Shown here: one piece after another, positions 21,463 to 64,000 of the stretch | Layout: every line of letters begins with the position of its first letter | Numbering within the stretch: position 1 is the stretch's first letter | Assembly (NCBI GenBank): GCA_028281535.1 | Contig: JANQJS010000038.1 | Location: 1-64,000 of the forward strand | Reading direction: 5' to 3' | DNA: 64,000 nucleotides | From: Sedimentisphaerales bacterium | GTDB lineage: Bacteria; Planctomycetota; Phycisphaerae; Sedimentisphaerales; SM23-30 | Translations under genes and position numbers: made by a program | The notes under the pieces: model-generated | Told to the model about the DNA's origin: nothing | Databases searched by the model: none | What the model saw: the letters and a program-made list of their open reading frames with translations, nothing else

Positions 21463-22863
21463 TTAGCCACCTAATAAAATTGACAATATAGATGATTTGC
21501 TTTGATTTAATGATCCTAGCAAAGCGGCATTGATTTCAAATAGGGTATTAAGTCGTTGGTTGTTGGCAGTCTCAGAGACAACGTCGACATCATTGAGTTG
21601 ACTGATACCAGAGGCCAGGTTGACTTTCGTCGCGGCCATTGAATTAAGGGTTGAATCAACGGTGTATCGGCTAACGGCACCTAGTCGACCGCGTTCATAT
21701 GAGATTAAATTACTCCCTGCTTCGATAATATCCTGGGCTGCTTCAAAATTACCAGTAGAAATTGCGTTTGTACCACCACTCTTTAGGGTTGTTAATTTTC
21801 CCAGGCTGTCATTTCCCAGGTTTCCAGCTGATACTGAGGAAATACCGATGTTCAGAGCGTCACTGGCTGCTGGGCTCAATTGAAAATTTGCACCATTACC
21901 ACTGACAGTAAACGTTTCAGATCCAGTTGTCGTACCAAACGCGGTGGTTAAAGTAAATTTAGCTGATGTAGATCCACTTGAGAAATTGATCGCCATGCCA
22001 TTTTCTTCTGCTGCGGAACCATTGACTGTAACGGTAGGGTCTACACCGTAATCTGATGTGATACTACCATTGAAATTGAAGGTACCTTGGGTAACATTAA
22101 CGGCGACATATTGATCATCGCCATAATATTCTGAATAGAGTTCGAGGTTACCGCCATTATTGACTGCTGTGACGCCTGTGACTTCGGTTTGTGCATTGAT
22201 GGCTGTTTCCATCGTGGCAACATTTGTGGCTGCCGCAAAAGAAAAATCGTAAGACCCCTTATTGCCTGTGACCGTAAATTCTGTAGTAGCCCCTAAAGCC
22301 CCACCAGCATAAATCATTTGCGCACGTTGAGCCGCACTGGTGACAGCTACGGTAAGATCTACAGACCCACTAGATGTGTCTGCTGAATTAATTCGAACAT
22401 CTTGAAGATCTGCTGAATCGATCCCTGAGACATTAAAGCCAAGATTACCATCCAGCAATCGTGTGCCATTAAATGTGGTTGTATTGGCAATACGGTTAAT
22501 TGAATCAATGGCGCTATCGATTTCAGCTTGATAGGCTGCTTTTTCGTCAGCGGTTGCGCCGCTGTCGGATGCCAGGACCACTTTGGTGTTAATCGTATCG
22601 AGTAAGTCGGAGATTTCGCTCAGTCCACCATCAGCGGTGTCGAGCATATTGGAAATGCGTTGGCCATTTTTTGTAACCGCATCAATTTCTGCTACTTCAG
22701 ATTCCAACTGCGATAGACGGATTACCCCTGAAGGGTCGTCTGCGGCCGTAGTAATTCGCTGTGCTGTAGCGAGTCGTGTGTTTGACAAAGCTAACTGTGT
22801 TCCCAGGCTCATCAAATTATTGAGTATGCCTTGGCTTTGAAAGCTAGAGTTAATATTAAACAT
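21463..22863 (-). CDS. fliC: flagellin
   Basis: A 466-residue flagellin, the filament subunit exported by the flagellar type III system. The N-terminal D0/D1 region shows LSNTRLATAQRITTAADDPSG and the long heptad helix ending NTTTFNGTRLLDG; the C-terminal partner helices include LNSMAATKVNLASGISQLNDVDVV and end ILSILLGG. The middle (about 150-370) is Thr/Ser/Gly-rich, offering many sites for O-glycosylation, in keeping with the nonulosonate and Maf genes at 50-60 kb. I chose the second of two adjacent ATGs (22863), since GGAGG is 6 nt upstream of it. A glycosyltransferase gene is divergent across a 427-bp gap. Confidence 0.92.
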   Translation of the reverse strand: MFNINSSFQSQGILNNLMSLGTQLALSNTRLATAQRITTAADDPSGVIRLSQLESEVAEIDAVTKNGQRISNMLDTADGGLSEISDLLDTINTKVVLASDSGATADEKAAYQAEIDSAIDSINRIANTTTFNGTRLLDGNLGFNVSGIDSADLQDVRINSADTSSGSVDLTVAVTSAAQRAQMIYAGGALGATTEFTVTGNKGSYDFSFAAATNVATMETAINAQTEVTGVTAVNNGGNLELYSEYYGDDQYVAVNVTQGTFNFNGSITSDYGVDPTVTVNGSAAEENGMAINFSSGSTSAKFTLTTAFGTTTGSETFTVSGNGANFQLSPAASDALNIGISSVSAGNLGNDSLGKLTTLKSGGTNAISTGNFEAAQDIIEAGSNLISYERGRLGAVSRYTVDSTLNSMAATKVNLASGISQLNDVDVVSETANNQRLNTLFEINAALLGSLNQSKSSILSILLGG

Positions 22864-23219
22864 CATATTCCTCCTGTATCTCCGATAGTGCTTGGCCGCT
22901 CAAAATTTCCCTGGACGAGCGCGCAAGCTGGGCGCAAAAAAATAAGCATGGCATCGTTACATTACAGGTAAACGAATGGCATGCTTCTTAAAGTCGCTTT
23001 ATGTTTTTACTTGGCAGCATTCAGACGTACGCTGAGCACTTGACCAAATGTGGCTGTATGCCGGGAGATGTTGTTAGACTGTGATTTCCTGGATCAGCCG
23101 TTTACCAACAAGCCTTATTTGTTGGCTGTTAATCTCGACATAAATTTGTATTAACTATTCAACTTTAATGTAAAATATAAATAGGGGACAAGCAAGCGAA
23201 TCAACAATAATTGTATAAA
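22864..23219. other. flagellin upstream gap
   Basis: Non-coding leader of flagellin, shared with the divergent glycosyltransferase gene. It contains a 7-bp inverted repeat CCAACAA/TTGTTGG (23105-23111 and 23119-23125) able to form a small hairpin. I found no convincing sigma-28 or sigma-54 site directed at flagellin; only a weak match exists at 22973-23001. No open frame of note. Confidence 0.4.
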
Positions 23220-50680: not shown

Positions 50681-51829
50681 TTAGTAAACAATCTTTTTTC
50701 TTAACAACGTTTTATCCACTCGAATTTTTGCCAATGCTTTGGCTATTTTCTGGCCGGCCTTGCCGCTGCCATAAATTCTATTGCATTTAAGATGTCCCAC
50801 TGCCTTGCGTTGGCTGATTTGGTCAAGACCCTTTTTAATATGCTGAAAACCATATTTTGAATCTATGACGTTCGTATCGCGCTCGCGCCCTGTCTGGCGT
50901 GGGCCAACGTTCAATACATCGGCATTTAAATAGCTGGACTCTATAATTCCACAAGAACTATTTCCAACTAGTGCAAATGTTTTGCGTAGTAAGCCTAAAA
51001 ATATCGGACGTGGTAAATGTTTGAGGATACAGTGATCGACTTTGAAATTATATTGCTGGATTGCTCGGATGATTCCTGAATGACCCGGGTCAGAGTTGGG
51101 ATATAAGATGATGAGAGGCAGACCTTTAGATTCACATGCTTTGAGTGTTTGTTTCATCCAGGTTTCTTCTTTTGTCGCAGCAAAACCAGCTGGATGTTGT
51201 AGAATGATCATGAATGGATCTTGGGTATTCAATCCAGTGCATTCATCCAAAATAGATTTTTTTTTACAGGGTATGCCCGATAATTCATCGATTGCTGGTG
51301 AGCCCGTCTGATAAATACGAAAAGGATCTTCACCTAACTTAATTAAGCGGGATTTAGATTGGGCTGAGGCAGGAAAATGAATGTGAGCCAGCTTGGAGAT
51401 AGCATGGCGGTAAGCATCATCCTGGATACCTGTGGCAACATCACCTCCATGGATGTGAGCAATAGGAATTTGGCTGGCAGTTGCTGCACTGGCCGCGGCA
51501 AAAATTTCAATGCGATCGCCAAGCAGCAGGACAATATCGGACTTTAGTTCCGCGTAAGCTTTACTCATCTTAGATATCGCTTTGCCAAGTCCGACAGCAT
51601 GGTTAAGTATGTTATCATCTTCTGTTTGAAGTTTTACCTTTGCATCAATCGGCAATCCGTCTGATTCGATTTCTTTGACAGTATAGCCAAAAGTTTTTAA
51701 AAGGTGCATGCCTGTTGCGATGATTTGGAGTTTAAGATCAGAATGTTTTTGAATTGCTTGTATAACAGGTTTAAGAAGCCCATATTCAGCGCGAGTACCA
51801 GTGACTACCGTGATTCGACGTTTTTTCAA
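50681..51829 (-). CDS. neuC: UDP-N-acetylglucosamine 2-epimerase (hydrolysing), NeuC/LegG type
   Basis: A 382-residue GT-B-fold epimerase that hydrolyses a UDP-HexNAc while epimerising C2, giving the free ManNAc-type precursor of a nonulosonic acid. Marks are ITVVTGTRAEYGLLKPVI, LLLGDRIEIFAAASAAT, IAHIHGGDVATGIQDDAYRHAISKLAHIHF and GNSSCGIIESSYL. Start is TTG 51829 with AGGA 9 nt upstream. Whether the product is ManNAc (sialic acid) or a 2,4-diacetamido sugar (legionaminic acid) cannot be told; no aminotransferase or dehydratase for the latter lies in this cluster. Confidence 0.88.
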   Translation of the reverse strand: MKKRRITVVTGTRAEYGLLKPVIQAIQKHSDLKLQIIATGMHLLKTFGYTVKEIESDGLPIDAKVKLQTEDDNILNHAVGLGKAISKMSKAYAELKSDIVLLLGDRIEIFAAASAATASQIPIAHIHGGDVATGIQDDAYRHAISKLAHIHFPASAQSKSRLIKLGEDPFRIYQTGSPAIDELSGIPCKKKSILDECTGLNTQDPFMIILQHPAGFAATKEETWMKQTLKACESKGLPLIILYPNSDPGHSGIIRAIQQYNFKVDHCILKHLPRPIFLGLLRKTFALVGNSSCGIIESSYLNADVLNVGPRQTGRERDTNVIDSKYGFQHIKKGLDQISQRKAVGHLKCNRIYGSGKAGQKIAKALAKIRVDKTLLRKKIVY

Positions 51830-51844
51830 TGAAGTATATCCTGC

Positions 51845-52612
51845 TTAGGAGTCAATGATAGAATTCGATGGGTTCTTTTTTGTCGTTTTAGATGTTGTTT
51901 CAATGATTGACGAGGCAGATTTTGGATAAGACCAGAATCGGTCAATTTCATCCTGTCCAGGATTTTCATTGTTATATGTAGGCTGCATGTTAATTGCTTT
52001 CGCAGGCACACCTACCACTGTTGTCGACGATTCCACATCTTGAACCACGACTGCACCTGCACCAACAACAGCATTTTGGCCTATGGTAATCCCTTGAATA
52101 ATCGTTGCTCCTATACCCACAAACGCATAGGGTTGTACCGTAACATGGCCAGCGATTCTGACGCCTGGGCATATGTGTGAAGATTTTAATATGTTGGATT
52201 CATGATCGATGATGCTGCCTGTATTGATAATGACGGAGTCTTCAATTGCTGCTAGTGTGCAAATATTTGCTCCCGCTGCGATCACGACATTTTTTCCAAT
52301 TGTACAGGTGCTTGCTATATTGGCCGAAGGGTGAATTGCTGAGACAAGGTTTACACCGGCTTGTTCAAACTTTTTGGTATAAGCGTCGCGGATGCGATTG
52401 TCACCGATGGCAATGATCGCACCTCCTATGCCATACTCTTCGAATTTGTCCACCATGGATAAATCGCCTAGAACTCGAAGGCCGCCAATTTTTTTATTAT
52501 GTAGGGCTTTGTTGGCATCTAAAAAACCGGCCAAATCAAATTGGTGGTTGCTGCGCAATATATCCAATACGACTCTCCCGTGACCTCCTGCACCGACGAT
52601 AACGATATTCAT
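51845..52612 (-). CDS. neuD: NeuD-family sugar O/N-acyltransferase
   Basis: A 255-residue acyltransferase. The N-terminal 75 residues form a Rossmann-like domain (MNIVIVGAGGHGRVVLDIL) and the rest is a left-handed beta-helix of hexapeptide repeats (ASTCTIGKNVVIAAGANICTLA, VGIGATIIQGITIG, VGAGAVV). Enzymes of this family acetylate sialic acids or their precursors using acetyl-CoA. The catalytic His is likely in INTGSIIDHES. It starts within the neuB stop (ATGA overlap) and is 15 nt from neuC. The C-terminal 40 residues are Ser/Thr-rich and not part of the fold. Confidence 0.85.
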   Translation of the reverse strand: MNIVIVGAGGHGRVVLDILRSNHQFDLAGFLDANKALHNKKIGGLRVLGDLSMVDKFEEYGIGGAIIAIGDNRIRDAYTKKFEQAGVNLVSAIHPSANIASTCTIGKNVVIAAGANICTLAAIEDSVIINTGSIIDHESNILKSSHICPGVRIAGHVTVQPYAFVGIGATIIQGITIGQNAVVGAGAVVVQDVESSTTVVGVPAKAINMQPTYNNENPGQDEIDRFWSYPKSASSIIETTSKTTKKNPSNSIIDS

Positions 52613-53679
52613 GAATTTTCATCCTTGCGATTAGTAAGAAAATCATAACGGAGTAATTGATCAGCAGGTATGTCACAATTGGCCCTGCTTCCCACGATAG
52701 ATTTTAATTTTTCAGAGGGAATTCCATTGCCGGGCCGTTTCTCAGTCAGCATATCTTCGGTGATGATACTACCCGCTTTTATATATTGCTGTGCAACGAT
52801 GCTGGTATGTACTTTTTCTTTGATAAAACGTTCTTGAGGCAGGGGCGATTTGTTATATTGCCCACATGCGATTGAGGCTTGTCTGGCTTTATAAATATAA
52901 TCTTTCAGTTCCGCTGGCGACAAACTCATTTTATGATCTGGGCCTTCAAGTGATTTGTCCAATGTAAAATGTTTTTCAAGAATCGTCGCACCAGCTGCGA
53001 CGGCAAGTGCGCCTGTTTCAGTTTCTAGCGTGTGATCAGAAAAACCAGTTGGCAGTCCGAGATGTTCATGCAAATAACCGATTGCATATAAATTAGCCTG
53101 GTCCAGTGATGTTGGGTAAAGGCTCACGCAATGTAAGACAGCAAGGTTGCCGCAACCGTTTTCAGTCAATGTTACAATGACTTTTTCTATGTCTGATAAC
53201 AAAGACATTCCTGTCGACAAAATGACTGGCAGGCGTGTTTGCCCGATTTCTTTTAACAGGGAATGCATTGAAGTGTTCCCTGAACCAATTTTGATAGATT
53301 CCATGCCGATTTGACACAAAACCTTTAACCAGTAGGTGGAAAAGGGGGTTGCCAAAAAATCAATATTTCGCATTTGGCAAAATTCAAATAATGCATGAAG
53401 ATCATGTTCTCGAAGTTCACATTTTTTGAGCATGTCATATTGGCTTTGTGAACCAGTGTCGTTTTCGATTTGGTAGTCTGCTTTGGGAGCTGATTTGGTT
53501 GTCAGCTCGTCCGCACTGAATGCCTGAAATTTTACAGCATCCGCGCCAGCTTGAACCGCAGCATCAATTAATTCATAAGCGGTTTCCAGGCAGCCATTAT
53601 GATTCACGCCGGCCTCAGCAATGACATAAGGCGGTTTTGTTTTAATAAAACTTTCGCACCATGATGGTTTATTTGACAT
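52609..53679 (-). CDS. neuB: N-acylneuraminate-type synthase (NeuB/LegI)
   Basis: A 356-residue enzyme that condenses phosphoenolpyruvate with an N-acylmannosamine-type sugar to a nine-carbon nonulosonic acid. The TIM barrel has YVIAEAGVNHNGCLETAYELI, AVKFQAF, ATPFS, KIGSGN, VILSTGM and LEKHFTLD. A C-terminal SAF (antifreeze-like) domain begins around residue 295 (YIKAGSIITEDMLTEKRPGNGI). All of these are usual for NeuB, PseI and LegI; the exact acid cannot be distinguished. It is the core gene of the operon, between the radical SAM enzyme (9 nt) and neuD (4-nt overlap). Confidence 0.92.
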   Translation of the reverse strand: MSNKPSWCESFIKTKPPYVIAEAGVNHNGCLETAYELIDAAVQAGADAVKFQAFSADELTTKSAPKADYQIENDTGSQSQYDMLKKCELREHDLHALFEFCQMRNIDFLATPFSTYWLKVLCQIGMESIKIGSGNTSMHSLLKEIGQTRLPVILSTGMSLLSDIEKVIVTLTENGCGNLAVLHCVSLYPTSLDQANLYAIGYLHEHLGLPTGFSDHTLETETGALAVAAGATILEKHFTLDKSLEGPDHKMSLSPAELKDYIYKARQASIACGQYNKSPLPQERFIKEKVHTSIVAQQYIKAGSIITEDMLTEKRPGNGIPSEKLKSIVGSRANCDIPADQLLRYDFLTNRKDENS

Positions 53680-53688
53680 GACTAAAGA

Positions 53689-55170
53689 TTATCCTACAGC
53701 AGCATTAAATCCATGGCGTTTGCGGTGAGCTTGCATTTCGGGCGATTCCAGTTGTCGCTTGGCACGCTCATATAATTCGTATCCATACCAGTCGATTTCT
53801 TGCTGGCGAACTTCTTCTTCGGTAGGTGGTGTATAATTATGTCGTGCAATCTCGAGAGCTTCGTCGCGAGTGGCAATCAATTCATCGTCTGGCATATCAG
53901 ATAAATTAACGGTTAAATCTACGGCATCACCAATGTCGAAGACAAATTTTTCTTCATCAATAACCATTTGCAGACCATTACTTTTGCCATATTTTTGTTT
54001 CATCTGTGGGGAATTTTTAAATTCATCATACAGAGGTGTTCCTGGATAAGGACATGTAATCATCAGGGCTGACAATGGAATATTTAGCTTTTTGCAATAT
54101 TCAACAGTTTCCATGATGGTCTCACGTGTTTCACCTGGGTAACCTGTCATAAAAGATACTGGCGTACGCAAGCCTGCTCGGCGACTGTTTTCAATCGCTT
54201 TGGCAGCTTTTTCAGGTGTGGTGTTTTTCTTCATACGTTTAAGAATGGTTTCTGAGCCACTTTCAAGGCCATAGCTCACTGAGACACAACCACTCATCCG
54301 CATGCGTTTGAGTAGCTCATAATCACAAATATTTACACGTCCTGTGCAACTCCAGCGAACATTGAGTTTTTGTTTATCAATTAGATCGCAAATGTCAAAG
54401 ACCCGTTTTTTGTCAATAACAAAACAATCATCCTGGAAACTGACAAAATCAACTTGATAACGATTATACAATTCTGTCATTTCGCCCACGACATCTTCCG
54501 CACTTCGTCCTCTGTATTGTCTACCAAAAATACGATAGCAATATTGACATGGGTAAGGACATCCGCGGGAACTAATAACATCAATATCACGTCCCACACC
54601 TACGACTGGGTTTGCCAAGTAGACTTCCATGGGGAAAAGATCCCAGGCAGGATAAGGCAGTTCGTCTAAATTTTCTCGTTGTGGTCGGCCCGCTGTTCGT
54701 ATGATTTGATTGTCCTGTTTGTAAGCTAGCCCTGGAATATCTTTGAGATCTTGATCATTTAGTAATGCGGGCATGAGCTCCAGGATGGTGTCATCGGCTT
54801 CAGCAATTGTCATCACATCGATTTCTAAATTGTTTAGAGCCGTTTCAATAATTGATGTCCCGACTGAGCCGCCCAGAACAATTTTAATATCTGAATTGTA
54901 GTCTCGAACCATTTTACAGAATTCTTTGGTCCATCTATAGACTGTTATCATGCCACCAATCCCAATGATGGGAGTGTCATAGGTTTTAATTTCATCCATG
55001 ACTTGTTGGTGGGACCAGCGTAAGCCATTGACGTCGAGCACGGCAACCTTGTATCCGGCTTTTCTTAGAATTGCTGCGATCAGTCCAATGCCGCAGGGAA
55101 AATTGCGTGGTCGATCCCAGGTTCGAAGTGGTGGGAAGACCAACAGTATATCAACTTGCTTTTTTCCCAT
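53689..55170 (-). CDS. B12-binding-domain radical SAM protein
   Basis: A 493-residue radical SAM enzyme. The N-terminal 150 residues have the Rossmann-like cobalamin-binding fold (LLVFPPLRTWDRPRNFPCGIGLIAAIL, IGIGGM), although the DxHxxG cobalt ligand is not seen. The iron-sulfur motif is SSRGCPYPCQYCYR near residue 205, then YGLESGSETILKRMKKN and the GYPGET strand. The C-terminus is helical. Such enzymes modify unactivated carbons, commonly by methylation. Being inside the nonulosonate operon, it may alter the sugar or a flagellin side chain. Start ATG 55170, AGGA upstream. Confidence 0.85.
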   Translation of the reverse strand: MGKKQVDILLVFPPLRTWDRPRNFPCGIGLIAAILRKAGYKVAVLDVNGLRWSHQQVMDEIKTYDTPIIGIGGMITVYRWTKEFCKMVRDYNSDIKIVLGGSVGTSIIETALNNLEIDVMTIAEADDTILELMPALLNDQDLKDIPGLAYKQDNQIIRTAGRPQRENLDELPYPAWDLFPMEVYLANPVVGVGRDIDVISSRGCPYPCQYCYRIFGRQYRGRSAEDVVGEMTELYNRYQVDFVSFQDDCFVIDKKRVFDICDLIDKQKLNVRWSCTGRVNICDYELLKRMRMSGCVSVSYGLESGSETILKRMKKNTTPEKAAKAIENSRRAGLRTPVSFMTGYPGETRETIMETVEYCKKLNIPLSALMITCPYPGTPLYDEFKNSPQMKQKYGKSNGLQMVIDEEKFVFDIGDAVDLTVNLSDMPDDELIATRDEALEIARHNYTPPTEEEVRQQEIDWYGYELYERAKRQLESPEMQAHRKRHGFNAAVG

Positions 55171-55220: not shown

Positions 55221-55961
55221 TCAAACAAATGATTTTATTGAATGTGTATGCAGGTTCTTGTCAGCTTTTTCTCGAATGATGGCTTCTGCTAGATAGAAAT
55301 CACGAAGTGAGTCAATATCCACGGTTTCGTGAGCTTCCTGCATGACGCCTCGACGATCTGTTCCCAAAAAGGCATGTGGATTATCACTTTCAGCAGACTC
55401 CATGAGTGTTTGATATTTTACGGCACACACCGCTCCATCAATAGAATAGAGTGGTGGTAGGTTTTGGCGTTGATAAATGTTATTTTCGATATAGACGTTG
55501 GCTTTGTCGTCATCAAGTTGGTAAAGCCAATAAGGATGAAATTTTCCAACGGGTGACATCGTTTGTGCTGAATCTGCATCGGTTTCGATTAGTTTGTTAA
55601 TGGTTTTGTCGATGATACCTTCAGCTCTTACTGGAATATTGGCATAAAGCAGGACGACAATGTCTGGAATATAGCTTTGAGTTTCTGCTAATTTTACGCA
55701 ACAGTGCCGCATCGCATCGTCAATTTTTGAAAGATGATTTGCTAGGTGCTCTGGGCGTTCAACTAAATCAACATTATAGTCTTGTGATATTTCTTTAATA
55801 AATGGATCATCTGTTGAGATGGCAATTTTATCCAGTTTCTTTGCATTAAGGGCCGCTTCGATCGTGTAACTTATAACAGGTTTATCAAGTAGTTCACGGA
55901 TGTTCTTTTGCGGTACGCCTCGACTGCCTGCTCGAGCTGGGATGATACCTAATATGTTCAC
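55221..55961 (-). CDS. neuA: CMP-nonulosonic acid cytidylyltransferase
   Basis: A 246-residue nucleotidyltransferase activating the nonulosonic acid with CTP. The signature IIPARAGSRGVPQKNIREL is intact, with ISTDDPFI and the GAVCAVKYQTL substrate region. The product, a CMP-sugar, is the donor expected for a Maf-type transferase. Start is GTG 55961 with AGGAG 9 nt upstream. It is 27 nt after the fused pseudo-radical SAM gene and 50 nt before the radical SAM gene. Confidence 0.92.
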   Translation of the reverse strand: MNILGIIPARAGSRGVPQKNIRELLDKPVISYTIEAALNAKKLDKIAISTDDPFIKEISQDYNVDLVERPEHLANHLSKIDDAMRHCCVKLAETQSYIPDIVVLLYANIPVRAEGIIDKTINKLIETDADSAQTMSPVGKFHPYWLYQLDDDKANVYIENNIYQRQNLPPLYSIDGAVCAVKYQTLMESAESDNPHAFLGTDRRGVMQEAHETVDIDSLRDFYLAEAIIREKADKNLHTHSIKSFV

Positions 55962-55988: not shown

Positions 55989-57641
55989 TTAGCGATGCCA
56001 TTCCTTGCAATTGACACATAATTCGTTTGTATTGAAATTGCATTGCTTGTGTGACTGTCGAAGTTCGTCAAGTGGGCCACCTTGCCAGATCTCTTTAAGG
56101 CTCTGGTTGGCAGCGTTGCCAACAATGCTCTTGCCTGAAAAGTCTTGCATGCAGGTGGTGACATTTCCATCAGATAAGATAGACATAACGCGCGATAGTT
56201 TTCGACATGATTCCCGGTTGGGGGGTGACATGTTCATAATTGCTTTGTCTTTGATCTGGCCTGAGAAATCATTAAATCCTTCAATTAATGCGTGACCACA
56301 TTTTCGTACCCAGTGCGCAAAGAAGTCATCCATGTCGCCATAGGTGTCATGTGATTTTACCATGACAGGAATGAGTAGTGGCCCGTTATGGTTATGACTG
56401 GCTTCAAGAAATGGATAAATTTGGTCGAGGAGTTGATCGTAAGAATCTTGTCCTTTTAATTCTTTGTATAGCTCTGGACTATGGGTATCGATATACACAC
56501 TGATGACATCAACATCACTATGTATCAGATCATCAGCAAGAGAATTTTTTAATAGTAGGCCATCGGTAATAATGTTGATGCCAAAAATGCCATTATCCTT
56601 AGCAATTTTAACCATCTCTAATAATTGGGGGTGAGCCAGCGGTTCACCAAAGCCACCAAATGTTAAGCAAATATCGTCGTAGGCTGTGCAATCTTTCATG
56701 ATTTTTGTGAAAAGATTAAGATCCATCTGCTTGCGTTGATTAGCCATCTCTGCATGAGGATACCCCTGGATACGCAGCGTTTGGTCGGTAGTGATTTCAA
56801 TTTCGATCTCTTGTGGGAAATGAAATTTCTGGTGTTCGATTGTCTTGAGATTTGTGACAGTATTTTCGGCAGAATTCGTTGTTGTGGTCTTTTCGGCTAT
56901 CTGCTCTGGTTTCGTGACAATCTGCTCGAGAAGCTCAATACTTCGTTGCGTGTCAGCTAGATACCGAAATTGTGAAAAATTTATCTCTTGGTTTGTTGGG
57001 CAAATGCAATTGCTATTGATGAAATCTGCTCTGGCGGCGTCTGGATTGTAATTTAAAAGATCACATATGGTGACATTGGCTTCAATTAATTCTGAAAGTA
57101 GGTCCATTCGATAAATGCAGCTTGTTAAGCCAGGTGCGGTGTGCGAAAAAGTGAACCGCATCTCTTCTTCGTATTCAAAATGATGATCAATTAATTTGTC
57201 GAGTAGTACCGGGTCAAGACAAATTGCTTCCGCGGCAATGGGGACCGCTGAATAGGCATCCAGCTTTAGCATCATGTTGTAAATTTCAGCCGTAACGGGT
57301 TGTTCATCAAAGCAGGTTGCATCACCAATACCTCCTCGCCATGAGGACAATGCCCATTTGCGTTTTTTGATAATTCGATGTTTTGGTATAGCGTGTTCGA
57401 TGCCTTTGATGTGTATGTCATATGACTTGAGATTTTTTGAAAGCGTCTCTAATTGTCCTTGAGGGCAGCAGACAAAGATTTCATCCAGTTTTTTTGCCTG
57501 GTGTAAAATGTCAATTGTGTGATGCAGGATCGGTTTCTCGTTGATGGTATAATTAATTTTTGAAGATGTTCCTATGGAGCTTTGATCAAGATCTGCATAG
57601 ATCATGGCCATGGTTTTTTTGGGAGTCGCTTGGCTAATCAT
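55989..57641 (-). CDS. fusion: nucleotidyltransferase-like + radical SAM-like lacking its Cys + SPASM
   Basis: A 550-residue protein. The N-terminal 230 residues resemble SpsF/NTP-transferase enzymes (MAMIYADL...NEKPILHHTIDILHQAKKLDEIFVCCP), but the Arg/Gly-rich nucleotide loop is not intact. From about 275 the sequence reads EIEIEITTDQTLRIQGYPH, aligning with the radical SAM start where CxxxCxxC is expected, yet no Cys is there. The rest of the fold is kept: GGFGEPLAHPQL and GINIITDGLLL. The C-terminus (about 460-550) is a SPASM-type Cys-rich domain (DGNVTTC, CNFNTNELCVNCKEW). It resembles the spiro-SPASM family as I recall it. I chose ATG 57641 (AAGGAG 10 nt upstream), which overlaps the Maf gene by 8 nt. 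Function unknown; it may be non-catalytic or use SPASM clusters only. Confidence 0.7.
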   Translation of the reverse strand: MISQATPKKTMAMIYADLDQSSIGTSSKINYTINEKPILHHTIDILHQAKKLDEIFVCCPQGQLETLSKNLKSYDIHIKGIEHAIPKHRIIKKRKWALSSWRGGIGDATCFDEQPVTAEIYNMMLKLDAYSAVPIAAEAICLDPVLLDKLIDHHFEYEEEMRFTFSHTAPGLTSCIYRMDLLSELIEANVTICDLLNYNPDAARADFINSNCICPTNQEINFSQFRYLADTQRSIELLEQIVTKPEQIAEKTTTTNSAENTVTNLKTIEHQKFHFPQEIEIEITTDQTLRIQGYPHAEMANQRKQMDLNLFTKIMKDCTAYDDICLTFGGFGEPLAHPQLLEMVKIAKDNGIFGINIITDGLLLKNSLADDLIHSDVDVISVYIDTHSPELYKELKGQDSYDQLLDQIYPFLEASHNHNGPLLIPVMVKSHDTYGDMDDFFAHWVRKCGHALIEGFNDFSGQIKDKAIMNMSPPNRESCRKLSRVMSILSDGNVTTCMQDFSGKSIVGNAANQSLKEIWQGGPLDELRQSHKQCNFNTNELCVNCKEWHR

Positions 57642-59613
57642 TGTTGTTTGACTCCTTGTTATCATGCTTTTTGAGCTCATCTTCGATGCGTTCGACTCCT
57701 TTGTGGAGTAGGTCAATTAACCTCTGGCAGCCATCTTTCAGTTGGGTGACGTAGTTTATATCTCGTAACAATTGTTGACGTTGTCGTTTAGTTCCCTGGT
57801 TGTTTTGAATGCCAATGGCTCGATCATTTCTAAAACGAATCCATTCGGCTGTTTGAGATACACTACCAATAAGCTGGTAAATCTTTGGGCGTTGACTTAC
57901 TTTGACCCTTAATTCGTCAAGGCGAATCATCTTGTTGTTTAAAGCCGCTTGATCTTCGACTAGTTCTAGCATTTCTGTCACAAGGTCAATCGTTTCGATA
58001 ACAATTTCTCGAAATTCCTCAGCTTCTTCAATGCGATTATTGAGAATGTCTTTACACTTTTTAAGCGGTTTTGGATTAAACCACTTTGAAATTTCAGGGT
58101 ACTCAAAAAGCGAAGGAGGGATGGGATCTTTGCAAAATTCCTCAGCCGCTTCTTCGAGAGTCATGACTTGTGAAAACTGTTTTTTGACACCGCCACCTGT
58201 TGCGTCGATGACCCGAGAAGTCGATTTAGCAAAATCTCTTTCAAACTGTTGCAAATAGGTAAACATTTCTTCGTCTGTATATATGGGTTTATCGTTACAA
58301 TCTTTTACGCGACGCAATGACTGCCCTTGACGAAGAATGCGTTCAAATTCTTTGTTTTCCATGGTGCAGAAACGGTTGAGTTCTGGTTTCCAGATGTCGT
58401 GTAATGCATTTCCTGGCGAATAGTAAACATGATTTGTAAATCCTAAATCTTGTCCGATGAAAATAATTGGATCGGCACCAATATATTGAGCCAGGTAGAA
58501 TGACAGATGGGCAACGGTTGTGCCGCCTGTGAGATTGTCATGGGGATCTTCATAACCTTCAAGTACCACCGAGAGAAATTCATTCCATAAGAGGGTAATA
58601 GGGCCTATGTCACGATACGTATCAATGACATCAGAGTGGGCTTTGGGTTCAGCAACCATTTGAACTTTTGGCAATTCACCAACACCTTCAAAAAAGCGTT
58701 TGCATACATGAGAAAAATCCAAGCTGGTCACAAAGTCTGGTTCAATGCCAACATTTAATAATGGCTTCAGGACGGTTTGGACTGCAATCACAACCACGTT
58801 TGGTCGGATTTTCTTGAGCAGCTCAAGATTTTTTCTCAGAGATGGCCCTGCGGATACTACGATTGCTGGTTTGCCTTCAAAACGTTTTTTGTAAATTTCA
58901 ATCGAGGGTGTTGATAAATAGGTAGGTAAATTGCTGATCAGGTTTTCGCACGTTGTAATATGGCATCCAATCAGAGTCCAAATATTGGCCCGAAGGAATG
59001 ACATATACTCACCAATGGTTTTATGGATTTTTGTATAAAATTCCTGGTTGTATTTTTGCAAGGCATGTGTGTATACAACGCCGAGCATAATAATCGAAGT
59101 ATGCTTTTCAAATTTCTTGAAGATTTCACTGCGATTGGTATCTGTGATAATCAGCAAACGACCATCTTTGATCATTTCGGAAAAGTCAAATAACTCAAAT
59201 GCCATGCGTATCAATGTTGTGTTTGATTCACAAACAGCAATAAACGTGTCGCCTGTGATTCTTTCTGCCAATGCTTGAATGTGGTAGCCAAGGCCAAAAC
59301 CATCAACAATAAAGCAGGCTGGAATTTTGCCTTCATTTTCTTCGATTTGTTTTTCTGCTTGTTCTTCAGCACCATCTGCCCATTGCTCAGCTTCACGTTG
59401 TGGATCATAGCGACTATGCAAATAGACTTTTCGTCCATTGTCGCCATTAACTTTGCAGGTGACCATGCCGTTGCGCGTCTCTTCGAGTTCAATAAAATCT
59501 TGGGGGTCGATGAGATCAAGTTCTTGTGCGAAATGGGGAGCGACTTCACATAACGCTCGCATGTTGGTTATGTAGGGTGTTGTTGTTTCTAATTGTTTTG
59601 GCAACGTTAGCAT
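57634..59613 (-). CDS. Maf/DUF115 flagellin nonulosonate transferase-like protein
   Basis: A 659-residue protein of the DUF115/MptE-like family, whose members include motility-associated factors that transfer nonulosonic acids to flagellin. The N-terminal part (about 1-230) is mixed alpha/beta (FIVDGFGLGYHIQALAERI). The core begins GKPAIVVSAGPSLRKNLELLKKI and includes VVIAVQTVLKPLLNVGIEPDFVTSLDFSH and DPIIFIGQDLGFTNHVYYSPGN. The last 130 residues are helical and charged, probably a coiled coil. It is the first gene of the nonulosonate operon and has a sigma-28-like motif 112 nt upstream. Cytoplasmic. Start ATG 59613. Confidence 0.85.
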   Translation of the reverse strand: MLTLPKQLETTTPYITNMRALCEVAPHFAQELDLIDPQDFIELEETRNGMVTCKVNGDNGRKVYLHSRYDPQREAEQWADGAEEQAEKQIEENEGKIPACFIVDGFGLGYHIQALAERITGDTFIAVCESNTTLIRMAFELFDFSEMIKDGRLLIITDTNRSEIFKKFEKHTSIIMLGVVYTHALQKYNQEFYTKIHKTIGEYMSFLRANIWTLIGCHITTCENLISNLPTYLSTPSIEIYKKRFEGKPAIVVSAGPSLRKNLELLKKIRPNVVVIAVQTVLKPLLNVGIEPDFVTSLDFSHVCKRFFEGVGELPKVQMVAEPKAHSDVIDTYRDIGPITLLWNEFLSVVLEGYEDPHDNLTGGTTVAHLSFYLAQYIGADPIIFIGQDLGFTNHVYYSPGNALHDIWKPELNRFCTMENKEFERILRQGQSLRRVKDCNDKPIYTDEEMFTYLQQFERDFAKSTSRVIDATGGGVKKQFSQVMTLEEAAEEFCKDPIPPSLFEYPEISKWFNPKPLKKCKDILNNRIEEAEEFREIVIETIDLVTEMLELVEDQAALNNKMIRLDELRVKVSQRPKIYQLIGSVSQTAEWIRFRNDRAIGIQNNQGTKRQRQQLLRDINYVTQLKDGCQRLIDLLHKGVERIEDELKKHDNKESNNND

Positions 59614-60566: not shown

Positions 60567-61592
60567 TCAATAATTAGCCTGTTTGTTTTTTAGAAGAAGA
60601 TGGATGAAAAAGGGCGAACCTGTGACGGCCGTAATGATGCCGACAGGCATTTCTGTCGGGGCGAGTATTGTTCGAGCAATGGTGTCGCATACAACCAGAA
60701 ATGCCCCTCCTAGTAAAAATGTCGAGGGCAAAATAATTCGGTGATCAAACCCTGAAAGTTGCCGCACGATATGTGGGATAATTAAGCCAACAAAACCGAT
60801 CGGGCCCGCTAATGAGACGACTGCCGCAGTGGTGAGACCGCCTGCGATAAATACATTTCGTTGTAATGTGTGAACATCGACGCCGTGGCCCATAGCCATT
60901 TCCTGGCCAAGAGCAATATGATTTAGGCTGGGGGTTTGCATGAAAAGTAAAACCAACCCTGGAATGAGTAGTGGCAAAAGGGCGGATAATTCGCCATAGC
61001 CTATGACGTCAACACCTCCCATAGTCCAGCGATTCATGGCAACCAATTTATTGGGGCTTGCAAAATAACTCAGCAAAAGAATGATTGCGCTACAGAATAT
61101 CCCAATGGTGACTCCGGTCAGCAATAAGGTAAAAATGGATGTCGTTGTCTTGCGTTTTGCCAGTGAGTAGATAAAAAAGAGCGTGAGACTCGACCCTAAT
61201 AGAGCAAAGCATTGTGTTGAAGTTAATGGGCCTAGCCGAAAAGATAAACTTGAAAAAGTAATGGCTAAGTATGCACCTACCGTGCCACCGCCCGTAACAC
61301 CCAGTGTGTAGGGGGTGGCTAGTGGGTTACGTAAAATGACTTGAAAAACAGATCCTGTTAGAGCAAGGCTGGCTCCGACAAGAAACGCTAAAATTGTTCT
61401 TGGGAGTCGTTGATCGATTAATATTTTTGTGTCTATATGGTATTCCGCAGAGTGCGTTAGATCAGAAAGCACCTGTTCCGCATCGAGCTTTTCACTTCCA
61501 ATCCATGGGGTAATGCAAAGTACCAACAATGTGACGATTAGATACTTTGTGCATGACAGCAAGCAGTGGCGTTTAGTAGGTAATGATCTCAT
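60567..61592 (-). CDS. BtuC/FecCD-type ABC transporter permease
   Basis: A 341-residue polytopic membrane protein with about ten hydrophobic helices, the permease of a cobalamin/siderophore-type importer. Family marks are RLPRTILAFLVGASLALTGSVFQVILRNPLATPYTLGV, MNRWTMGG, LSLAGPIGFVGLIIPHIVRQLSG and a C-terminal PTEMPVGIITAVTGSPFFIHLLL. It starts 9 nt after the ATPase gene. It works with the ATPase 61602-62396 and the binding protein 62393-63322. B12 or ferric chelate substrates both remain possible. Confidence 0.9.
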   Translation of the reverse strand: MRSLPTKRHCLLSCTKYLIVTLLVLCITPWIGSEKLDAEQVLSDLTHSAEYHIDTKILIDQRLPRTILAFLVGASLALTGSVFQVILRNPLATPYTLGVTGGGTVGAYLAITFSSLSFRLGPLTSTQCFALLGSSLTLFFIYSLAKRKTTTSIFTLLLTGVTIGIFCSAIILLLSYFASPNKLVAMNRWTMGGVDVIGYGELSALLPLLIPGLVLLFMQTPSLNHIALGQEMAMGHGVDVHTLQRNVFIAGGLTTAAVVSLAGPIGFVGLIIPHIVRQLSGFDHRIILPSTFLLGGAFLVVCDTIARTILAPTEMPVGIITAVTGSPFFIHLLLKNKQANY

Positions 61593-61601
61593 GATTGTTA
61601 T

Positions 61602-62396
61602 TTAATTGTTTTCTGTGATTGCTGGCAAAACAACAAATTTATTAGAAGAGGGGTATTGACTGAAAATGATTTTGTCTTGATAAATCGGCTCTAGCACTTC
61701 TGGACAAATGACTTGGTCTGTTTTATTTTGAATAATAACTTTACCTTGATCAAGTAGAACGAGTTCGTCGCAATATATTGCGGCAAGATTTAAATCGTGC
61801 GTAACGATGCCAATAGCGATATCATTATTTTGTAACGATTTTAGTAGGTTAAAAAAGATAGATTGATGATACATGTCCAGGCCCGTTGTTGGTTCATCCA
61901 GCAAGAGGACCTTCGGTGTTTGCGCTAATACGGAAGCTAATAAGACACGTTGCTTTTGGCCGCCTGACAATTCGTTAAGATAGCGATGACGCAAATCAGT
62001 AGTTTGAGTTTGTTCTAGGCAATCCTGAACAATCATTAAGTCACTCTTTTCTAAAAAACATGCACCTTTCAAATGAGCAAAACGTCCCATCGAAACGATT
62101 TCTTCTACGGTATACTCATAATTGCTGTTGACTTGTTGTGGTAAATACGCGAGTGATTTAGCAATCACTTTTCTAGAAAATTGGTTGATGAGCGTGCCAT
62201 GTAGAGACACTGTCCCTTTGCTGGGTTGGATTAATCCCGCAGAAATTTTAAGTAGCGTACTTTTGCCGGCGCCGTTCGGGCCGATGATACCAACCAGTTT
62301 TCCTGGCGACAGGTTAAGCGAAACATGCTCCAATTGCCAATCTGAATGCGAATATGAAAAATCGACTTGATCTACATGGAGATAGGACAATGTCAT
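61602..62396 (-). CDS. ABC transporter ATP-binding protein (BtuD/FecE type)
   Basis: A 264-residue ATPase with Walker A GIIGPNGAGKSTLLK, Q-loop region LAYLPQQ, signature LSGGQKQRVLLASVLA, Walker B VLLLDEPTTGLD and the switch His in IVTHDLNLAA. It powers the adjacent BtuC-like permease. Its start overlaps the end of the binding-protein gene by 4 nt. Confidence 0.93.
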   Translation of the reverse strand: MTLSYLHVDQVDFSYSHSDWQLEHVSLNLSPGKLVGIIGPNGAGKSTLLKISAGLIQPSKGTVSLHGTLINQFSRKVIAKSLAYLPQQVNSNYEYTVEEIVSMGRFAHLKGACFLEKSDLMIVQDCLEQTQTTDLRHRYLNELSGGQKQRVLLASVLAQTPKVLLLDEPTTGLDMYHQSIFFNLLKSLQNNDIAIGIVTHDLNLAAIYCDELVLLDQGKVIIQNKTDQVICPEVLEPIYQDKIIFSQYPSSNKFVVLPAITENN

Positions 62397-63322
62397 TGAT
62401 CCAGATCTCCACGCAATATTACCGATAGAGTTTTGGCTGCGATTGCTAGTCTTGGGCCTGGTATAAACAAAGAACTTTCTTGGGTGAAATAGATTTTGTC
62501 ATTTTGCACTGCAGGGATATCTGGAAAAAATTGCCAATTTCCTGCCAGGCTCGTTTGGATCTCTGGTGTAAGATTGTCACTGTTATGAATTTCAATAATT
62601 ATTTCGGGCGTTCGCTTTAATAATGATTCTTTTGATATTTTAGGGTAAAGCTCTTTAACATCATCGAAAATATTTTTACCGCCTGCAATTTCTACGAGTT
62701 CATTGATAAATGTATTTGGACCTATTGTTGCCAGGCTGGCCATCGACCCTTTTTCGCGAAACATGGAAATGAAAACCTTTTTTGGAATTTGACCTTGATG
62801 TGACGATTCGATTTTGCTGAGCTCTGTTTTTATCTTTTGACACATTTCTGCCGATTCTTGCAATCGTCCTATTTTTTTTCCTATTTTTAGGATAGCCGTA
62901 AACACATTATCAATATTATCTAATTCGAAATTTAGGAACTCGATCTTTTGATCCTGACAAAATTGAGTCATTTTTTCAAAGTGGCCCTGATAGATAATTA
63001 AATCAGGATTTAAAGCAATAATTTTTTCAAAATTTGGATTAATATAAGCACCGACTTTTTGAATGTCTTGGGCGGCTTCTGGGAACTTGCAGAATTCTGT
63101 TACTCCGACAATCTGTTGCTGGCCACCTAAAGCAAAAACTATTTCTGTAATACTGGGTGCGAGGCAAATAATTCGTTGGTACTCAGGGGGTGCATTGGTT
63201 GCCGGAGCTTCAGCCGGTACTTGGGTCTGTTTATGACTTAATATTTGTTTTGCAAAAAAAACACCAGCTGTACTGATGCCAAATAGTAATATGATAAGTA
63301 GTAATGTTTTTTTAAGGGACAT
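62393..63322 (-). CDS. periplasmic substrate-binding protein (BtuF-like)
   Basis: A 309-residue TroA/BtuF-type binding protein. An N-terminal hydrophobic segment (LLLIILLFGISTAGVFF) without a lipobox Cys suggests a membrane anchor or signal peptide. The family opening is RIICLAPSITEIVFALGGQQQIVGVTEF, followed by INPNFEKIIALNPDLIIYQG and a long connecting helix. The sequence most resembles cobalamin-binding proteins, which would fit a need for B12 by the radical SAM enzyme in this window, but siderophore specificity cannot be excluded. I chose ATG 63322; a TTG six codons earlier would overlap the previous gene. Confidence 0.85.
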   Translation of the reverse strand: MSLKKTLLLIILLFGISTAGVFFAKQILSHKQTQVPAEAPATNAPPEYQRIICLAPSITEIVFALGGQQQIVGVTEFCKFPEAAQDIQKVGAYINPNFEKIIALNPDLIIYQGHFEKMTQFCQDQKIEFLNFELDNIDNVFTAILKIGKKIGRLQESAEMCQKIKTELSKIESSHQGQIPKKVFISMFREKGSMASLATIGPNTFINELVEIAGGKNIFDDVKELYPKISKESLLKRTPEIIIEIHNSDNLTPEIQTSLAGNWQFFPDIPAVQNDKIYFTQESSLFIPGPRLAIAAKTLSVILRGDLDQ

Positions 63323-63326
63323 GATC

Positions 63327-64000
63327 CTATTGTAAGTCAAATAGAGAATTATTTAAAGGAGCAAACCAGCCAACATTCATTTTTTGGGCATCAGCACCAA
63401 AGGTGTTTAGCGTGTTCGTCTCAATTTGATCCTCTGATGATTCAATATAAGCCATTTTTTCTTGAGTGACATGACCATCTATCCAGGCAACATTCGCAAA
63501 TCCGCCATGACGAAAATGTATCGTAGGGTCATATTCCTGAATGGTGCCATATTCATCACTGCCATCTAATTCCTGTCCATTCTGAACCACATATCGAGGC
63601 CATGCAAATGACGTTTCGATGTAATAGGAATGTCCCTGATTGACTCTGGGCATCGCTACGTCAGCAAACATAAGTGTCTCAGATGGCTGCTTGATACTTG
63701 AGGCCTGTGGTGTGGTTGCATAAGCTTCCTGGTAAGATGACATACTCCTTGTTGCACCTGGTAAATGAAGACGCGAACCAATATAAATCATATTGTAACC
63801 ATACCCTCCAGAGCCATTTTCATAGCTAACATTCCATTGCCCTTTAACAAAGTCGATCAATTCAGGGCATTCCTGGATTCTCGCATCAGAGAGGTAATCA
63901 ATCAGTGGGCTACGGGATGAATCAAAAGGGGCGTTGATGTGATTTCGGCTTCCATGCCAACGGTGCAGGCTATCCTGTTGCCATAAATCAGGTGCCGCGG
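63327..64000 (-). CDS. prepilin-like H-X9-DG protein (DUF1559 family), N-terminus beyond window
   Basis: The frame is open from the window edge to the stop at 63327 (about 224 codons), so the N-terminal type IV pilin-like helix, if present, lies outside. The C-terminal signature is in FRHGGFANVAWIDGHVTQEKM: His, nine residues, then Asp-Gly, the H-X9-DG motif of planctomycete DUF1559 proteins. PSETLMFADVAM and Trp/Tyr-rich strands precede it. These proteins are numerous in Planctomycetes; most are presumed to be secreted or surface pseudopilins of unknown function. Its end is 4 nt from the chosen start of the BtuF-like gene. Confidence 0.82.
   Translation of the reverse strand, partial: AAPDLWQQDSLHRWHGSRNHINAPFDSSRSPLIDYLSDARIQECPELIDFVKGQWNVSYENGSGGYGYNMIYIGSRLHLPGATRSMSSYQEAYATTPQASSIKQPSETLMFADVAMPRVNQGHSYYIETSFAWPRYVVQNGQELDGSDEYGTIQEYDPTIHFRHGGFANVAWIDGHVTQEKMAYIESSEDQIETNTLNTFGADAQKMNVGWFAPLNNSLFDLQ

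Follow-up and report, generated by a model that had tools for sequence, protein, structure and literature searches.

A planctomycete protein clade without the radical SAM cysteine motif, encoded beside the flagellin glycosyltransferase Maf, as its probable partner subunit

Modules that direct a flagellin O-glycosyltransferase to the right acceptor may be attached to the enzyme or separate from it. The N-terminal flagellin-binding domain of FlmG is a precedent for such a specificity module (PMC7591256), and GlfM is presented, in a passage of PMC13317340 that refers to Unay et al. 2024, as a co-encoded glycosylation factor of Maf-2. By analogy, we propose a comparable role for a protein of different build, a large two-fold pseudoenzyme likened to GlfM by role alone. 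It is encoded in a 64,000-nucleotide stretch of DNA from a Sedimentisphaerales bacterium of the phylum Planctomycetota (GenBank assembly GCA_028281535.1, contig JANQJS010000038.1, positions 1 to 64,000), hereafter the window. Two groups of described enzymes share its folds. BtrN (4m7s/4m7t) aligns with it by sequence and by fold over the barrel and the four-Cys twitch domain, but BtrN is a radical SAM dehydrogenase that carries CxxxCxxC and cleaves SAM, whereas the window protein lacks those cysteines and has an additional N-terminal domain. That domain resembles SpsF and the CMP-nonulosonate cytidylyltransferases (6oew, KdsB, CMP-NeuAc synthetase, PseF) in fold and strand order, yet it lacks the Arg of the CTP loop and contains an insertion of ~30 aa. 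Judged by its sequence, the window protein is built on radical SAM/SPASM and cytidylyltransferase scaffolds but has, for neither of them, the feature on which catalysis is defined.

The best curated family for the window protein is spiro-SPASM (TIGR04321), for which our literature search found no paper. The 510-position profile of this family aligns (positions 75–506) over the second half of the N-terminal domain, the barrel and the SPASM region; in the homologue L114, the N-terminal part aligns only once the insertion, which is absent from the profile, is removed. The score of 159.4 bits remains under the 250-bit cut-off, which is not exceeded in any of the 294 genomes of the phylum, and by the NCBI cut-off the protein is not a member of spiro-SPASM but a sister. 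We probed the loop columns of TIGR04321 by scoring copies of the window protein with Cys substituted at the three loop positions. The substitutions raised the score by 1.7, 4.2 and 2.3 bits, compared with ~6–7 bits in a canonical model, and removal of the four twitch Cys cost 25 bits. Because these gains are below the canonical ones, the loop-Cys columns of spiro-SPASM look mixed, which suggests that this family is not uniformly Cys-free. An earlier reading of the sequence alone had supposed the Cys to be lost throughout it. A haloarchaeal family that NCBI names pseudo-SAM/SPASM protein (TIGR04347) gives a weak match of 29 bits, which does not approach its 525-bit cut-off and does not include the N-terminal cytidylyltransferase-like domain. 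Hits on Brachyspira plasmids are radical SAM or SPASM proteins of ~330 aa and not the N-domain fusion; on plasmid pBHWA1 (7427–15194) radical SAM and SPASM-domain genes stand in tandem, one of them annotated as SPASM domain-containing only.

The gene for the window protein (Table 1) ends with the stop codon 55989–55991 and contains no internal stops or frame breaks. We prefer ATG 57641 as its start, since AAGGAG lies ~11 nt upstream and the codon overlaps the end of maf; TTG 57716 is a possible alternative. The ATG lies inside the last Maf codons (Maf stop 57634–57636; AAT GAT TAG / ATG ATT AGC), and the translational overlap with Maf that had been read from the sequence is thus present, over 8 nt. 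An AlphaFold2 model built on a 39-sequence alignment shows a predicted cytidylyltransferase-like domain followed by a BtrN-like barrel and twitch domain. BtrN is also the first match of the model in the PDB by Foldseek, covering barrel and twitch, and MoaA and anSME are matched as well; the profile search agrees, with all four Cys aligned to the BtrN twitch. PF04055 matches 37 of the 39 aligned members. For the window protein itself, Pfam reports SPASM (PF13186) above the cut-off (E 9.4e-12) and a truncated Radical_SAM match.

Table 1. Position and supporting evidence of the features discussed, in window coordinates
Feature	Coordinates	Strand	Evidence
Pseudo-radical-SAM/twitch protein, 550 aa, ATG 57641	55989..57641	(-)	TIGR04321 E 1.3e-46; AF2 pLDDT 87.6, pTM 0.89
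N-terminal cytidylyltransferase (SpsF)-like domain, residues 9-243	56913..57617	(-)	6oew profile match; Foldseek 6oew TMt 0.66
Degenerate nucleotide loop, residues 16-40; Arg lost, G24 and Lys/Arg kept	57522..57596	(-)	alignment
Insertion, residues 86-113, RKWALSSWRGG..FDE	57303..57386	(-)	absent from NTase and TIGR04321 profiles
Pseudo-radical-SAM barrel, residues 276-470	56232..56816	(-)	BtrN match by sequence and fold, TMt 0.74-0.77
Loop at the CxxxCxxC place, residues 284-296, no Cys	56754..56792	(-)	sequence and alignment
GGFGEP, remnant SAM-binding motif, residues 329-334	56640..56657	(-)	Glu relaxed in Cys-less members
Twitch/SPASM domain with C479, C497, C542, C545	55992..56231	(-)	PF13186; BtrN twitch alignment
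Maf flagellin glycosyltransferase	57634..59613	(-)	directly upstream, 8-nt overlap; PF01973 1.2e-40, PF20157 1.1e-9, NF050051 4.2e-35
PseF-like CMP-nonulosonate cytidylyltransferase	55221..55961	(-)	TIGR03584 4.5e-28
B12-binding radical SAM enzyme, intact CxxxCxxC	53689..55170	(-)	profile/Pfam matches
NeuB nonulosonate synthase	52609..53679	(-)	TIGR03569 4.8e-113
NeuD/PglD-type acetyltransferase	51845..52612	(-)	TIGR03570 2.6e-64
NeuC UDP-GlcNAc 2-epimerase	50681..51829	(-)	TIGR03568 5.4e-115
Flagellin gene, same window	21463..22866	(-)	PF00669 E 1.7e-26 at C60:22444-22854

The sequence-only reading had described a loop without Cys at the place of the radical SAM motif, with GGFGEP and the C-terminal Cys retained. 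The loop is exactly as read, TTDQTLRIQGYPH, the positions of canonical Cys 1, 2 and 3 being taken by Q287, I291 and Y294 (Q287-x3-I291-x2-Y294), and both retained features are present at the residues given in Table 1. Homologues place this in a wider frame. An earlier scan of the genome collection with the single protein as query gave no match, and a later one brought up 43 members from Planctomycetota with E-values no higher than 2e-23 and, beyond this phylum, only Cys-bearing radical SAM proteins. Within the family-level group of the window, nine other genomes encode proteins 41–45% identical to the one studied here, and a phylum-wide TIGR04321 search added more divergent fusions of equal size, all without CxxxCxxC. 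Among 88 distinct barrel homologues, the motif is missing from all 64 Planctomycetota proteins with an N-terminal extension (63 with the same N-terminal domain, one with an unrecognised one) and kept in 24 of 24 relatives that lack the domain. Such an absence is far beyond chance, and it excludes the possibility that homologues generally retain the Cys. In the maximum-likelihood tree, the 64 Cys-less proteins fall on one side of a single branch (support 100/97). Because they form one clade, the loss of CxxxCxxC appears to have been single and ancient; one loss suffices. Because Pfam and NCBI models give these proteins the label radical SAM/SPASM, genome annotation would name them radical enzymes; such a name would mislead, as the common ancestor of the clade seems to have lost the site of the catalytic cluster in a single event.

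The most constant neighbour of the clade is Maf. In the window, Maf comprises the MptE-like and Maf N-terminal domains. In 54 distinct loci the gene immediately upstream, read from the same strand, is maf, mostly with overlapping stop and start codons (at one of them, L086, the assembly seems to carry a broken Maf frame). In eight further genomes Maf and the N-terminal domain share a single ORF of 964–1471 aa, with or without a recognisable barrel. Maf is therefore adjacent or fused in 62 of 66 loci and unlinked in four; three loci that end at a contig edge stand apart from this count. Moreover, each of the 27 sampled genomes that encode the full protein, i.e. those in which the hit includes the N-domain region (or the fused equivalent in G216), carries a PF01973 domain, which is found in 52 of the 294 phylum genomes overall. 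About five of 27 would be expected by chance, although a formal p-value would be misleading since the genomes are related. At least 25 of these genomes have flagellin, compared with 160 of 294 overall. One exception, G320, in which no flagellin was detected, encodes a Maf–partner fusion (L131) whose Maf part is also decayed; the genome is 97% complete, and both parts appear to have decayed once the flagellum was lost. The pair is present in at least one sequenced planctomycete whose chromosome is complete and does not bear the label of a metagenome assembly (L114, 'syqfu'). In the window's family and in some others, nonulosonate genes lie next to the pair, but none were detected near many of the Phycisphaerae pairs; what stays constant is thus the unit of Maf and the pseudo-radical-SAM protein. 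Not every Maf requires this partner, since genuine Maf homologues without it exist in the phylum (e.g. L156, L158 and L163). Inspection of the partnerless Mafs revealed no single common replacement; the distant ones bear other domains. Six distant Maf-like proteins from other families of the phylum (L149–L153 and L167; 795–1140 aa) have extra domains and no pseudo-radical-SAM partner.

Adjacency and fusion establish a partnership and not a mechanism. We consider it probable, from these genomic patterns, that the protein is a double pseudoenzyme serving as a dedicated partner subunit of Maf. The earlier suggestion of a scaffold or specificity factor gains strength from the near-universal adjacency and the natural fusions. 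In the proposed course of events, a domain of nucleotidyltransferase fold would have become attached to an ancestral SPASM/twitch radical SAM protein. At an early point in the Planctomycetota clade this protein would have lost, in one event, the cluster that cleaves SAM, with its barrel retained as a scaffold. The N-terminal domain would have lost catalysis at the CTP loop and gained a new invariant site. The subunit would be made in coupling with Maf, bind it and, in the cytoplasm, set its acceptor or donor specificity or its activity, and so affect flagellin glycosylation. Co-encoding, a feature of the GlfM role, is found in the adjacent and fused loci, and by analogy a GlfM-like accessory role of the protein may be envisaged. 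The link to Maf would make the protein a tangible example, open to experiment, of how a radical SAM fold can be reused as a glycosyltransferase subunit, and a handle on how flagellin O-glycosyltransferases choose their acceptor, for which the natural fusions offer ready-made single-chain constructs for structural work.

The N-terminal domain is the part for which a different role has most to recommend it. Its best Foldseek match is the Leptospira cytidylyltransferase 6oew, KdsB and CMP-NeuAc synthetase are matched as well, and it aligns with the neighbouring PseF by hhalign (E 7.9e-8). The sequence-only reading regarded the domain as SpsF-like and degenerate, without the usual Arg and Gly of the nucleotide loop. 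Almost all members do have a hydrophobic residue in place of the Arg, but the Gly (G24) is kept, as is Lys/Arg at the position of the catalytic Lys, and the domain is not merely degenerate. Its insertion, RxW-x4-WRGG....DE, is the best-conserved stretch of the protein, with a mean column identity of 0.66 versus 0.53–0.56 for the domains, and R94, W96, W101, R102, G103, G104 and D112 are invariant in 39 sequences. In alignment with the PseF-family profile, ~20–30 residues around RKW..WRGG have no counterpart. When the insertion is deleted in silico, nucleotidyltransferase profiles run through the N-terminal domain (in L114, TIGR04321 does so too), and since its removal restores the alignment, the WRGG stretch represents an addition relative to both families. 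Near the end of the fold, an Asp–Thr pair is also conserved, D230 being invariant and T231 nearly so.

Such conservation leaves room for a catalytic role. The domain may still work as an enzyme, perhaps as a transferase or nucleotidyltransferase whose site was rebuilt at RxW-x4-WRGG, and modify the nonulosonate donor or act in a second glycan step after Maf, while the pseudo-radical-SAM part only supports it. The prominence of the insertion, its survival in fusions that have lost the twitch Cys and the retained D230/T231 pair would all fit. By contrast, the nucleotide loop has lost its Arg in almost all members, active PseF-type synthetases are encoded alongside in many genomes, and G216 homologues with an intact twitch domain lack the motif. 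We regard a working N-terminal domain as unlikely, albeit with a real chance of being correct. Under the partner-subunit reading, the WRGG site would instead serve for binding, either of the CMP-nonulosonate donor or of some portion of flagellin.

The C-terminal cysteines C479, C497, C542 and C545 fit the CX17C...CX2C arrangement of an auxiliary cluster, and PF13186 matches 39 of 39 members. They correspond to the four-ligand twitch set of BtrN and not to a full SPASM domain with seven or eight Cys, and they probably hold one [4Fe-4S] cluster in most lineages. All four are kept in 59 of 64 homologues; the five in which they are wholly or partly lost (L128, L130, L131, L138 and L139) all lie in one part of the tree. 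Thus, the predicted cluster appears to be under strong selection in most lineages and dispensable in one, a pattern that favours a structural or regulatory cluster over chemistry. In the fused L129 and L134–L137 the barrel has decayed further still, and in the latter four it is no longer recognised. The decayed fusions keep Maf and a WRGG-like motif (SWRGG, CWRAG, MWGGG or SFRGG), the reverse of the G216 pattern. Decay of the C-terminal part while Maf and the N-terminal domain persist fits a non-catalytic, supporting role of the barrel.

The same cysteines could serve as a redox or iron sensor, the twitch [4Fe-4S] cluster switching the Maf complex and gating flagellin glycosylation by oxygen or iron. 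Their retention in most members despite the loss of the catalytic cluster is consistent with this, as is the confinement of their loss to one clade in which Maf fusion also occurs. However, that clade keeps Maf and the N-terminal domain, which means that the role can do without the cluster, and the pattern is equally well explained if the cluster is purely structural; we consider a sensor improbable. A broader and still speculative form of the partner-subunit reading, to which we give a small chance, is that a metabolic cytidylyltransferase and a metabolic radical SAM enzyme, both catalytically dead, were joined as a dedicated Maf subunit to form a new class of protein-glycosylation factor, with the twitch cluster acting as a redox or iron switch that the Maf-fused lineage later abandoned.

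It is very doubtful that the protein is still an active radical SAM enzyme, its cluster bound through an unusual ligand set. The barrel is retained, as is GGxG[E/D]P, but the Glu of this motif is relaxed to Asp in half of the clade (E in 31 and D in 33 of the 64 Cys-less members, compared with E in 23 of 24 Cys-bearing relatives). The TNG-type Asn, present in 24 of 24 Cys-bearing relatives, is likewise relaxed. The loop has been rebuilt clade by clade, with a conserved R-[IL]-x-x-Y-P-[HQ] for the family of the window and RPR......RGP in most Phycisphaerae. Finally, only four Cys are invariant across the 39 aligned sequences, and all of them belong to the twitch domain, so no substitute ligand set for the catalytic cluster is visible. 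The original interpretation as a pseudo-radical-SAM protein is upheld, the motif being empty throughout the clade. A sequencing error, a frameshift hiding CxxxCxxC, on which that interpretation might have foundered, or a decaying pseudogene has a negligible probability and was rejected, as we found no point in its favour and the frame is intact, as are the homologous ORFs in dozens of genomes, with invariant residues and a well-supported clade.

The setting in a nonulosonate operon, also part of the sequence-only reading, is confirmed by the NeuB, NeuC, NeuD/PglD and PseF-like genes alongside (Table 1). The B12-binding radical SAM gene (53689–55170) occupies the same place in the operon across the window's family. 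In L062 (13140–15728) and L063 (5821–8367) a B12-binding radical SAM enzyme and NeuB share one ORF, and because of this arrangement a radical modification of the nonulosonate is suggested. PseF-like and NeuB-like sequences are likewise joined in a single 813-aa ORF in L076 (9619–12057). At 60567–63340 (-) of the window, near this operon with its B12-dependent radical SAM gene, we recognised by reading a BtuC/BtuD/BtuF-like ABC importer set, which could supply cobalamin or iron. L053 encodes an intact radical SAM/SPASM protein (CQLHCVFC) whose N-terminal extension resembles, by eye, a WbqC-type domain.
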